From contig NZ_AP025628.1 of NCBI RefSeq assembly GCF_025999835.1, positions 3,224,001 to 3,288,000 on the forward strand: a stretch of DNA of 64,000 nt, in the 5' to 3' direction. This document shows, piece by piece, positions 3,024-43,282 of this stretch. The stretch is from Caldinitratiruptor microaerophilus (GTDB taxonomy: Bacteria > Bacillota > Sulfobacillia > Symbiobacteriales > ZC4RG38). The notes below the pieces were generated by a model. It worked only from the letters and a program-made list of their open reading frames with translations. It made no database searches and was not told the origin of the DNA. The position numbers and the translations under genes are program-made. Each line of letters starts with the position of its first letter. Within the stretch, counting starts at the first letter, position 1.

Positions 3024-3314
3024 CTATCCCAACCGCATGAAAGAAGACAGGATATCGTCCGCCGCCTTGTCCCCCGTGCCGCCGGCGCGGATCTCGGCGG
3101 CCATGGTCTGGCCCAGCTGGCACCCCAGGAGCTTCAGGCCCACCCGTGCGATCGCCGCCTTCATCGCGGCGAGCTGCACGAGGATGCTGCCGGGGTCGGC
3201 CCCCTTCTGGAGCATGCGCTGGATGCCCCGGGCCTGCCCCTCGATGCGGCGAAGGCGGCGCTGGAGGTCTTCCAGCACCTCGGGCGCCAGCTCGCGGCTG
3301 CTGAGTCCTGCCAC
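3024..3314 (-). CDS. CsoR/RcnR-family repressor with non-canonical sensor residues
   Basis: All-helical DNA-binding repressor of the DUF156 family (CsoR, RcnR, FrmR, CstR), 96 residues. Family landmarks are RLRRIEGQARGIQRML (residues 20-35) and the second helix LAAMKAAIARVGLKLL. Copper-type CsoR needs Cys-x24-His-x3-Cys and persulfide-type CstR needs two cysteines. Here the first Cys position is Pro/Gly (about residues 41-42), the His/Cys positions are Gln66 and Thr70, and the only cysteine is Cys65, shifted by one. The effector therefore cannot be read from sequence. GTG start with a GAGGAGGG site upstream. The gene is divergent from an osmC-like gene, and both promoters carry ATACC-N6-GGTAT/C operators. 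It probably represses itself and its neighbour; the role in thiol or persulfide stress is inference. Confidence 0.85.
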   Translation of the reverse strand: MAGLSSRELAPEVLEDLQRRLRRIEGQARGIQRMLQKGADPGSILVQLAAMKAAIARVGLKLLGCQLGQTMAAEIRAGGTGDKAADDILSSFMRLG

Positions 3315-39901: not shown

Positions 39902-41116
39902 TCACCGGGAGGCGGCGAGGGCCGTCTCGATGCGCTCGAGCACCGGCGGGTGGGTGAACAGCACGGCCACGGTGAACGGGTGCGGGGCGACGTCGGCCAG
40001 GTTGCTGCGGGCAAGGCGCTTCTCCAGCTCGGCCATTCCCGGCCCGTCGCCGGTGAGGGCCAGGGCGAAGCGGTCCGCCTGGCGCTCGAAGGTGCGGCTC
40101 ACGGCGTTCTGCACGGGCAGGGCGGCGAACGACGCCAGGGTGAGGAAGAGCACCAGCACGACCACGTGCGCCGGGTCGCCCGGCCGCCCCGGCGCCCCGG
40201 CCAGGAGGCGCTGGGCGAGCCAGAAGACGCCCGCGCTCCCCGCCGCCCCGAGGGCGATGCCCAGGTAGATGTGGTGCAGCCGCCAGTGCCCGAGCTCGTG
40301 GGCCAGCACGAGCAGGACCTGCCGGCGGTCGTACGATTGCAGCAGCGTGTCGTAGAGCACGATGCGGCGCGTGGCGCCGAAGCCGGTGAAGTAGGCGTTG
40401 ACCCGCCGGGTCCGCCGGCTGGCGTCCATGACGAGGACCTCCCGCACCGGCACCCCGGCCCGGCGGGCGAGCTGCCGCGACTCGGCCGCCAGCTCCGCGT
40501 CGGCGACGGGGGTGAAGCGGTGGAAGAGGGGGTCGATGACCACCGGCCCCAGGAAGCTCGACAGGGCGAGGTACAGGGCGAAGCCGGCGGCCGCGGCCGC
40601 CCACCACCCCGCCGGCCAGCGGCGGATGGCGGCGAAGAGCGCAGCCAGGAGCGCCGAGCTAATCGCCAGCCCGATCAGGAGCGACTTGCCCAGGTCGGCC
40701 AGCCACAGCCCGACCGTCTGGGTGCTGAGGCCATAGCGGTGGTCGAGCACGAAGCGGGCGATCCCCGCCGGTAGCCCGGCGGCCGTGATGCCCACGGAGA
40801 CGATCGCCCCGATCAGCACGGCGGCCAGCACGGGGCGGGGCCCCACGAGGCCGAGGAGCCAGCGCGCCAGCGCCCGGTCCCACCCGCGGGCGATCGTCCA
40901 CACGAGGAGGGCGACCGGCAGGGCCTGGCCGGCGAGGAAGAGGAGGTAGCGGGCGCGGCTGTACGCCTTCGCCCGGACGAGGTACGCCGGGTCGAAGTGG
41001 CGCAGCGCCTCGGCCGGCGGTGCCCACGGAGCCAGGACGCCGATCAGCAGCAGGAGAGCCGTGAAGCCGGCCAGAAGGCCGGCTCCCCAGAGAATCCCGC
41101 GCGACTCGGCGGACAC
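39902..41116 (-). CDS. M48-family membrane metalloprotease (Ste24/CAAX protease-like)
   Basis: A 404-residue integral membrane zinc protease. An N-terminal helix is followed by at least five more membrane segments. The catalytic domain has VLVMDASRRTRRVNAYFTGFG, the zinc motif LAHELGHW (HExxH) and the third ligand Glu in FERQADRFAL. This order and YDTLL match Ste24-type proteases that act on membrane proteins. GTG 41116 was chosen with GGGGGGCGATGCC upstream; the same frame runs on to 42367 only as a shadow of the next gene. It lies 20 bp behind the flavoprotein gene, so it may be the third gene of the thiol-redox operon. Confidence 0.88.
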   Translation of the reverse strand: MSAESRGILWGAGLLAGFTALLLLIGVLAPWAPPAEALRHFDPAYLVRAKAYSRARYLLFLAGQALPVALLVWTIARGWDRALARWLLGLVGPRPVLAAVLIGAIVSVGITAAGLPAGIARFVLDHRYGLSTQTVGLWLADLGKSLLIGLAISSALLAALFAAIRRWPAGWWAAAAAGFALYLALSSFLGPVVIDPLFHRFTPVADAELAAESRQLARRAGVPVREVLVMDASRRTRRVNAYFTGFGATRRIVLYDTLLQSYDRRQVLLVLAHELGHWRLHHIYLGIALGAAGSAGVFWLAQRLLAGAPGRPGDPAHVVVLVLFLTLASFAALPVQNAVSRTFERQADRFALALTGDGPGMAELEKRLARSNLADVAPHPFTVAVLFTHPPVLERIETALAASR

Positions 41117-41136
41117 GGCATCGCCCCCCGGGGCGG

Positions 41137-42504
41137 TCAGTCGCTCCCGCCCAGCTCCTTCACCGCCGCCCGGGCCGCCACCAGCACCGGGTCCCACACC
41201 GGCGCGAAGGGCGGTGCGTAGCTGAGGTCCAGCTCGGCCACCTCTTCCGGCGTCATCCGGGCGTGCAGGGCGGTGGCGAAGATATCGATTCGCTTCGCCA
41301 CCCCCTCCGGTCCTGCCATCTGGGCGCCGAGCAGGCGGCCGCTCTGCCGGTCGGCGATCACCTTCACGGTGATTCGCCCGCCGCCCGGGTAGTAGTGTGC
41401 CCGGGACCCGTGGCGGACCACGGCGGAGACCGGGTCGAACCCGGCCTGCCGGGCCTCGTCGGTGCTCAGGCCGGTGCGGGCGAGCTCCAGTCCGAACGCC
41501 TTCAGCACCGCCGTCCCGACCACCCCCGGGAAGGTGGCGTCGCCGCCGGCGGCGTTCTCCCCGGCCACCCGGCCCTGCTTGTTGGCGGTCGACCCCAGCG
41601 GGATGTAGGCCGGCCGGTCGCTGAGGAGGTGGTGCACCTCGGCAACGTCGCCCGCCGCGTAGATGCCGGGGACGTTCGTCTCCATGCGGGCCGTGACCTG
41701 CACGGCGCCGGTCGGCCCCAGGGCGATGCCGGCGTCCCGGGCCAGGGTCGCGGCCGGCCGGACGCCGCCGGCGAACAGGACGAGGTCGGCGTCCAGCGTG
41801 CGGGACGGGGTGACGACCCGGCGGACGCGCACGTCGCCCTCCAGGGCCTGGAGCGGCTCCCCGAAGTAGAGCGCCACCCCGTTTCGCTCCATCTCGGCCC
41901 GGGCGAGCTCGCTGAGGTCGGGATCGAAGTTGCTGAGCGGCCGCGGCAGCATCTCGACCACGGCCACCTCCAGGCCGATCGTCCGGAACGCCTCGGCCAT
42001 CTCCACCCCGATGTACCCGGCCCCGACAATAACCGCCCGGCGGGGGGCGTGACCGCGGAGGTACTCGAGCAGGGCGATCCCGTCGTCCAGCGTGCGGAGG
42101 GTGAAGACGCCCGTGAGGTCGGCGCCCGGCACCGGGGGACGGGACGCCCGGCCGCCCGTGGAGAGCACGAGCACGTCGTACTCCGTCTTGAAGGTCGATC
42201 CGGACGGGTCGCGGACCGTGACGGTCCGCCCCCAGGGGTCGATGGCCAGCACCTCGTGCCGGGTGAGCGCCAGGATGTTCCGCTCCGACTTGAACCGCTC
42301 CGGGGTGACCACGACCAGGTCCTCCGGCCGGCGCACCTGCCCGCTGATCAGGTAGGGCAGGCCGCACGAGCCGTACGACACGTGGCTGGATGCCTCGTAG
42401 GCGACGATCTCCAGGTCCGGATCGCGCCGCCGCGCGCGGGAAGCGGCGCTCATGCCGGCCGCCACCCCGCCCACGACCACCAGGCGCCGCCTCCTGTCCG
42501 CCAC
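41137..42504 (-). CDS. CoA-disulfide reductase / NADH oxidase-like flavoprotein
   Basis: A 455-residue pyridine nucleotide-disulfide oxidoreductase of the CoADR/Nox group. It has an FAD motif VVVGGVAAGMSAASRARRR, the single redox Cys in SYGSCGLPY (about residue 47), an NAD(P) motif AVIVGAGYIGVEMAE and the C-terminal FAD contact YAAGDVAEV. Members reduce CoA disulfide or persulfides, or oxidise NADH. It starts 14 bp after the selenocysteine-type disulfide oxidoreductase gene, so the two share a transcript. It may supply electrons to that protein in place of a thioredoxin reductase (inference). No rhodanese domain is fused. Confidence 0.92.
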   Translation of the reverse strand: MADRRRRLVVVGGVAAGMSAASRARRRDPDLEIVAYEASSHVSYGSCGLPYLISGQVRRPEDLVVVTPERFKSERNILALTRHEVLAIDPWGRTVTVRDPSGSTFKTEYDVLVLSTGGRASRPPVPGADLTGVFTLRTLDDGIALLEYLRGHAPRRAVIVGAGYIGVEMAEAFRTIGLEVAVVEMLPRPLSNFDPDLSELARAEMERNGVALYFGEPLQALEGDVRVRRVVTPSRTLDADLVLFAGGVRPAATLARDAGIALGPTGAVQVTARMETNVPGIYAAGDVAEVHHLLSDRPAYIPLGSTANKQGRVAGENAAGGDATFPGVVGTAVLKAFGLELARTGLSTDEARQAGFDPVSAVVRHGSRAHYYPGGGRITVKVIADRQSGRLLGAQMAGPEGVAKRIDIFATALHARMTPEEVAELDLSYAPPFAPVWDPVLVAARAAVKELGGSD

Positions 42505-42518
42505 GGGCGGACCCCCCT

Positions 42519-43217
42519 TTACTTGTCGTCCCCGCCGCTGAGGGCCTCGAGGACCTTCTGCAGGAACTGCCGCTCCGGCAGGGCGCCCACGAACATGACC
42601 TTGCCGTCGTTGACCACGGTGTGGGGGACGCTCATGACCCCGAAGCGCTCGGAGAGCTCCGGGAACTCGTTGGCCTCCACCATGTCCGCCACCACCTGGT
42701 CGGACTCCAGCGCGAACTGATGAGCCGTGCGGACCGCACGGGGGCAGTACGGTCAGGTAGGGGTGACGAACACCTGGATGTGGACCTTCTCCTTGATGGC
42801 CGCCAGCTGCTGCTTGATGGCGTCGGGCAGGCGGGTCTTGCCCTTCGAGACGTCGATGATCGTGTCGATCATCGCCCCGAACTCGTACCCGGCGGGGATG
42901 CCGAACCAGCGGGCGCCGTGCACGACCTCGTTGGCCACCAGGATCGCCGGCGCCTTGTCGATCCCGTACTGCCGGGCCCTGTCGGGTTCGGCCTCGATGT
43001 CGATGACCTCCGCGCGGAGGAGCGGCGAGAGCTCCGCCACCTCCTGCACGAGCTGGACGGTCTCCTTGCAGTACTGGCAGGGCTCCCGCCCCGGCAGGAT
43101 CAGCTTGCTGTCAGGCTTCGTGAAGACCAAGAGCCGGACGGGCTGGACGAGTTCCTTCTGGAACTCCTGTTCCAGCGTCTTCCGGTCCGCCTCCCTCAAC
43201 AGGCCCATGCAGGCCAC
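42519..43217 (-). CDS. Protein disulfide oxidoreductase with in-frame UGA (probable selenoprotein)
   Basis: Glutaredoxin-like protein disulfide oxidoreductase with two thioredoxin folds, 232 residues if UGA is read as selenocysteine. The first fold has CQYC at residues 47-50. The second begins IQVFVTPT, then UGA (42753-42755, residue 155), then PYCPRAV, where the family has CPYC. Reading continues in frame for 77 further codons with full family character (FGVMSVPHTVVNDGKVMFVGA) to TAA at 42519-42521. A SECIS-like hairpin sits at the exact bacterial spacing. The UGA replaces precisely the attacking cysteine, which argues against a random nonsense mutation. The promoter has ATACC-N6-GGTAT operators. 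The flavoprotein gene follows after 14 bp. Confidence 0.85.
42725..42755 (-). promoter_or_regulatory. Bacterial SECIS-like element following the UGA codon
   Basis: On the minus strand the UGA (42753-42755) is followed by 11 nt and then CCGUGCGGUCCGCACGG (42725-42741). This is a 17-nt hairpin with a 7-bp perfect stem as drawn, and GGUC at its apex. The E. coli fdhF SECIS has the same 11-nt offset, 17-nt size and GGUC apex, which SelB recognises. The stem lacks the bulged U of fdhF. Confidence 0.8.
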
Positions 43218-43224
43218 ACCCCCA

Positions 43225-43282
43225 GGGTATACCCCCTATGGTATTTCGATCCCATCTTAGGATACCCCTAGGGGCGTGTCAA
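43225..43282 (-). promoter_or_regulatory. Promoter and two operators of the disulfide oxidoreductase operon
   Basis: On the minus strand TTGACA (43277-43282) and TAAGAT (43254-43259) are 17 bp apart, a near-consensus promoter. One operator, ATACC-CCCTAT-GGTAT (43229-43244), lies just downstream of the expected start. A weaker one, ATACC-CCTAGG-GGCGT (43262-43277), fills the spacer. The 5-6-5 layout is identical to the sites beside the CsoR-like gene at 3359 and 3426. Confidence 0.75.

Follow-up and report, generated by a model that had tools for sequence, protein, structure and literature searches.

Selenocysteine (Sec) has been on record in a family of thioredoxin-like proteins since Zhang et al. 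(2006; PMC1794560) described the selenoprotein family 'Homolog of AhpF, amino-terminal domain' from two members, in Symbiobacterium thermophilum and Carboxydothermus hydrogenoformans. Reviews of 2022 (PMC9312934) and 2026 (PMC13188914) mapped this family to TIGR02187 with a UxxC motif, and Asgard archaeal members were reported in 2024 (PMC11227280); in the papers cited here, the family still has the status of a prediction. Among the protein disulfide oxidoreductases (PDOs), the Sulfolobus protein depends on NADPH and thioredoxin reductase for its recharging and owes most of its thiol-transferase activity to the C-terminal site (PMC7465337), and the Thermococcus PDO reduces the sulfur-oxidised regulator SurR (PMC7278568).

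The locus described here lies in a stretch of 64,000 nucleotides (the window) of the Caldinitratiruptor microaerophilus genome, a single contig (G000:C1) of 3,599,694 bases, and very probably encodes a bacterial selenoprotein of the PDO family TIGR02187, with two fused thioredoxin folds (Table 1). Because the Sec family has been known since 2006, the gene is a further member and not a discovery. The initial annotation was correct in calling it a selenoprotein and wrong in holding that no Sec-containing two-fold PDO had been described, a statement refuted by the papers cited above (PMC1794560, PMC13188914) and by the NCBI name of the TIGR02187 model, PDO_seleno_TRX, which already includes 'seleno'.

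It is the minus strand that carries the gene, a point left unstated in the initial annotation, and translation of 42519-43217 with TGA as U yields an uninterrupted protein of 232 residues. In this translation, the UGA (42755-42753) falls, as had been claimed, exactly at the first Cys of the second CPYC, and the normal CQYC described for the N-terminal fold is found. The assignment as a PDO with UxxC in its second fold likewise holds, since the protein matches TIGR02187 over the whole model with 263.6 bits (curated cut-off 185) and aligns across the UGA with two PDOs of solved structure, 1j08 and 1a8l (193 bits); as this alignment begins at ATG 43208, translation more probably starts there than at GTG 43217. 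Homology to 1a8l predicts two thioredoxin folds; in each of them, a CxxC or UxxC motif is followed by a cis-Pro position (AP/VP). In the C-terminal CPYC, Sec would take the nucleophilic position, with the N-terminal CQYC retained, and the C-terminal motif would correspond to the main thiol-transferase site of the Sulfolobus PDO; the unusual reactivity that had been proposed to arise from such a Sec/Cys redox pair is plausible.

Table 1. Features of the PDO locus in window coordinates
Feature	Position	Strand	Remarks
Putative selenoprotein PDO gene	42519..43208	-	ATG start 43208, TAA end; 229 aa, Sec152 (Sec155 if GTG)
Possible alternative PDO start GTG	43217	-	gives 232 residues
CQYC, active site of first thioredoxin fold	43068..43079	-	residues 47-50 of the 232-residue reading
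UPYC, predicted active site of second thioredoxin fold	42744..42755	-	residues 155-158 of the 232-residue reading
UGA codon, predicted to be read as Sec	42753..42755	-	same codon in 28/28 UGA-bearing relatives
SECIS-like hairpin, 7 bp, GUC loop, 11 nt past UGA	42725..42741	-	position, comparison, covariation
CoA-disulfide-reductase-like FAD/NAD(P)H oxidoreductase	41137..42504	-	starts about 15 nt past the PDO stop
Two overlapping ATACC...GG(G)TA-type sites, possible CsoR/CstR-type operators	43216..43244	-	such sites precede 8/56 family genes
CCCCTAGGGG palindrome, possible CsoR-type operator	43265..43274	-	upstream of PDO gene

Gene neighbourhood and candidate electron donor

The product of the flavoprotein gene next to the PDO gene matches TIGR03385 along the full model with 430.7 bits, below the cut-off of 578.8, and is therefore named only CoA-disulfide-reductase-like (CoADR-like); it carries the single-Cys motif SYGSCGLP, and its homologues adjoin PDO genes in L060-L062 (Sec) and L079 (Cys). 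The most likely activity of the Sec-PDO would be the reduction of disulfides or sulfane sulfur, with an NAD(P)H flavoprotein recharging it, and the electron donor is probably this CoADR-like protein. Farther downstream, a gene for an M48/Ste24-like membrane peptidase (39902-41140, minus strand) is probably unrelated to the redox pair. The large minus-strand ORF 39902-42367 overlaps the reductase in another frame; its portion below about 41.1 kb reads by eye as the M48-type peptidase and was rejected as a part of the redox unit.

Upstream of the PDO gene, the sites listed in Table 1 may serve a repressor of the CsoR family, whose members bind G/C-tract pseudo-palindromes and include the CstR sensors of reactive sulfur species (PMC10318464). 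Sites of the form TACCC-N-GGGTA precede 8/56 family genes, one of which is the window gene, and occur in 2.8% of background windows (p 1.7e-4), and CsoR-family genes adjoin PDO genes in L069, L077, L080 and L098. PDO expression would probably be induced through derepression by a CsoR/CstR-type sensor. Within the window, no csoR gene stands beside the PDO gene; at 3051-3272 (minus strand; G000:C1:3227051-3227272), there is a CsoR-family gene without the first conserved Cys, one of six CsoR-family genes in the genome. A genome scan with the strict operator pattern ATACCCCNNNGGGGTAT (2 mismatches) returned barely more sites than the control did, failed to pick up those of the window, and so yielded no regulon list. 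In L098 (1408-2346), which belongs to a genome from the same family, a CsoR-family gene comes directly after a Sec PDO, and a CsoR-type site lies upstream. In L077 (5016-6823), a PDO without the N-terminal CxxC precedes a thioredoxin-reductase gene, a second, two-motif PDO lying behind a csoR-type gene some 5 kb from the first.

It is quite conceivable, at somewhat less than an even chance, that the selenoprotein is genuine but is recharged by thioredoxin reductase and serves general redox homeostasis, the CoADR-like neighbour and the CsoR-type sites being incidental. Thioredoxin-reductase genes adjoin the PDO gene in five family members (L047, L052, L076, L077 and L087), and the Sulfolobus PDO uses that enzyme, whereas the tight neighbour in the window is CoADR-like and the same pairing recurs in other families. 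We infer the substrate and, from gene context, the partner and the regulation; a Sec-PDO fed by a CoADR-like donor under CsoR/CstR-type regulation is put forward as the likeliest but tentative reading, approaching but not exceeding even odds.

Predicted selenocysteine decoding and the candidate SECIS hairpin

The initial annotation had named selA, selB, selD and tRNA-Sec(UCA) as the genes on which its reading would depend, and the genome has them all, selD in two copies (L013 and L014), each with a UGA of its own as the codon of the canonical catalytic residue (KAGUGCKIG and GSGUACKIG). With the tRNA, selA, selB and Sec-type selD genes present, UGA decoding is to be expected in C. microaerophilus. 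By eye, a strong hairpin lies near the UGA of each selD gene (AGATCGGC/GCCGATCT arms). In the PDO gene, SelB and Sec-tRNA-Sec would decode the UGA under the guidance of the downstream hairpin.

That hairpin, reported at the outset as a 17-nt element exactly 11 nt past the UGA with an fdhF-type SECIS geometry, finds support in pairing and covariation. Its arms, CCGUGCG and CGCACGG, form 7 bp around the 3-nt loop, with a G opening the apical loop, and its length and spacing are those of the E. coli fdhF minimal element. The isolated 17-mer folds at -10.4 kcal/mol, but the region folded with the UGA has an energy unremarkable against shuffles (z -1.17), with the 5' arm pairing with UGA-proximal bases, and stability alone is therefore no proof of the hairpin. 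Sec and Cys genes could not be told apart by RNA energy alone, whereas pairing at fixed geometry did distinguish them: 14/28 UGA genes have a perfect 7/7, as against 0/26 Cys genes (Fisher p 1.5e-5), although Fisher and binomial p-values are guides only, because the sequences are related and kinship is ignored. Synonymous recoding of the window peptide gave 7/7 pairs in 0.5% of trials (P = 0.005), both-sided changes affect 6/7 of the hairpin pairs, which exceeds all 500 shuffles, and the covariation score of 0.343 compares with 0.165 in shuffles and exceeds that of every slid register, the highest of which reaches 0.269. The UGA members L063, L064-L066, L073 and L074 are outside this register and would need another hairpin, and a scan of the gene region with Rfam found no known RNA element, with hits at chance level only. 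What makes the predicted SECIS hairpin credible is thus its position and the comparison among relatives, rather than its stability.

A sequencing error, by which the true codon would be TGC or TGT and the product an ordinary Cys PDO, is very improbable. The exact lineage of the window gene was found in one genome only, so that the case against a base error at the UGA is only indirect, and its nearest relatives in the tree are Cys proteins; an error, however, would have to have struck the single Sec-prone codon, in a Sec-decoding genome, ahead of a 7/7 hairpin at +11 that is absent from 26 Cys relatives. The protein, the UGA, the Sec machinery and the hairpin are all supported by sequence, and we infer that decoding takes place in vivo.

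Relatives and closest known systems

Members were collected from 399 genomes of the phylum, from a search of the order and from one genome-contig scan, and 54 of them were usable. As the initial annotation had anticipated for true homologues, the position holds either UGA or Cys: all 28 UGA-bearing members have it at the codon of the second motif's first Cys, and the remaining 26 have TGC or TGT. Random nonsense codons elsewhere had been named as evidence to the contrary; other U letters in the member table are at or past gene ends. In the order search, seven matches, the window gene and its paralogue among them, have exactly one TGA each, as does an eighth (L103). A plasmid tblastn returned distant relatives and AhpF proteins only. 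That the gene is a pseudogene, or that the UGA, a normal stop in such bacteria, truly ends a protein of 151 residues (first fold and linker), is even less probable than an error, given the 77 codons of family sequence that follow it to the TAA, as first reported and now confirmed by the translation and the TIGR02187, 1j08 and 1a8l matches, with the cis-Pro motif kept and no further stop, and given the UGA at the identical codon in 27 relatives.

The maximum-likelihood tree implies eight changes of Sec/Cys label, at least four of them forced by well-supported branches. The window PDO branches alone, among PDOs most of which retain both motifs, and its nearest rows by path are Cys proteins; across the family, the N-terminal CxxC is kept in 13/28 Sec and 22/26 Cys members. 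The genome has a second Sec PDO (L056, G000:C1:1784614-1785240, minus strand), with UPHC and the N-terminal CxxC lost, which groups with Sec proteins of other Symbiobacteriales, genome G349 among them, in a clade that has lost that motif. A third, divergent paralogue (L057, G000:C1:1129531-1129935, minus strand) has Cys (CPRC) and also lacks the N-terminal CxxC. Within the family, the window gene forms a Sec lineage of its own, apart from the Symbiobacteriales Sec clade of its paralogue, and its Cys-to-Sec conversion possibly arose independently. That such an independent conversion, among PDOs with two active sites, gave a protein which forms with the CoADR-like neighbour a Sec-dependent module for CoA-disulfide or persulfide reduction under a CsoR/CstR-type repressor is a more speculative and rather unlikely proposal.

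The case suggests that a single UGA and its hairpin are enough for a true selenoprotein to be recognised in raw sequence. With its 28 Sec and 26 Cys members and at least four switches between the two states, the set assembled here is a good test bed for the contribution of Sec to a two-site PDO, and the recurrent neighbours (CoADR-like, thioredoxin reductase and CsoR-type) hint at a role in the reduction of disulfides or sulfane sulfur that can be tested.

With the Sec family of AhpF amino-terminal-domain homologues, or Grx-like domain proteins (Zhang et al. 2006), the window PDO shares TIGR02187 and the predicted Sec in UxxC; from the Symbiobacteriales Sec clade (L056, L058, L097, L099 and L100), it differs in keeping the N-terminal CxxC and in its separate branch. 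The archaeal PDOs (1a8l, 1j08) share the two thioredoxin folds, a full-length alignment and the CQYC of the first fold, but have Cys in the second motif where the window PDO would have Sec. More distant are the bacterial glutaredoxin-like proteins 2ywm/2ayt, which have the same two-fold architecture and a near full-length match of 119 bits, and which are not known to be selenoproteins. The AhpF N-terminal domain also has tandem thioredoxin folds and matches weakly (24-29 bits); unlike AhpF, which carries its own flavoprotein reductase domain, the window PDO has its probable reductase encoded by a separate gene.
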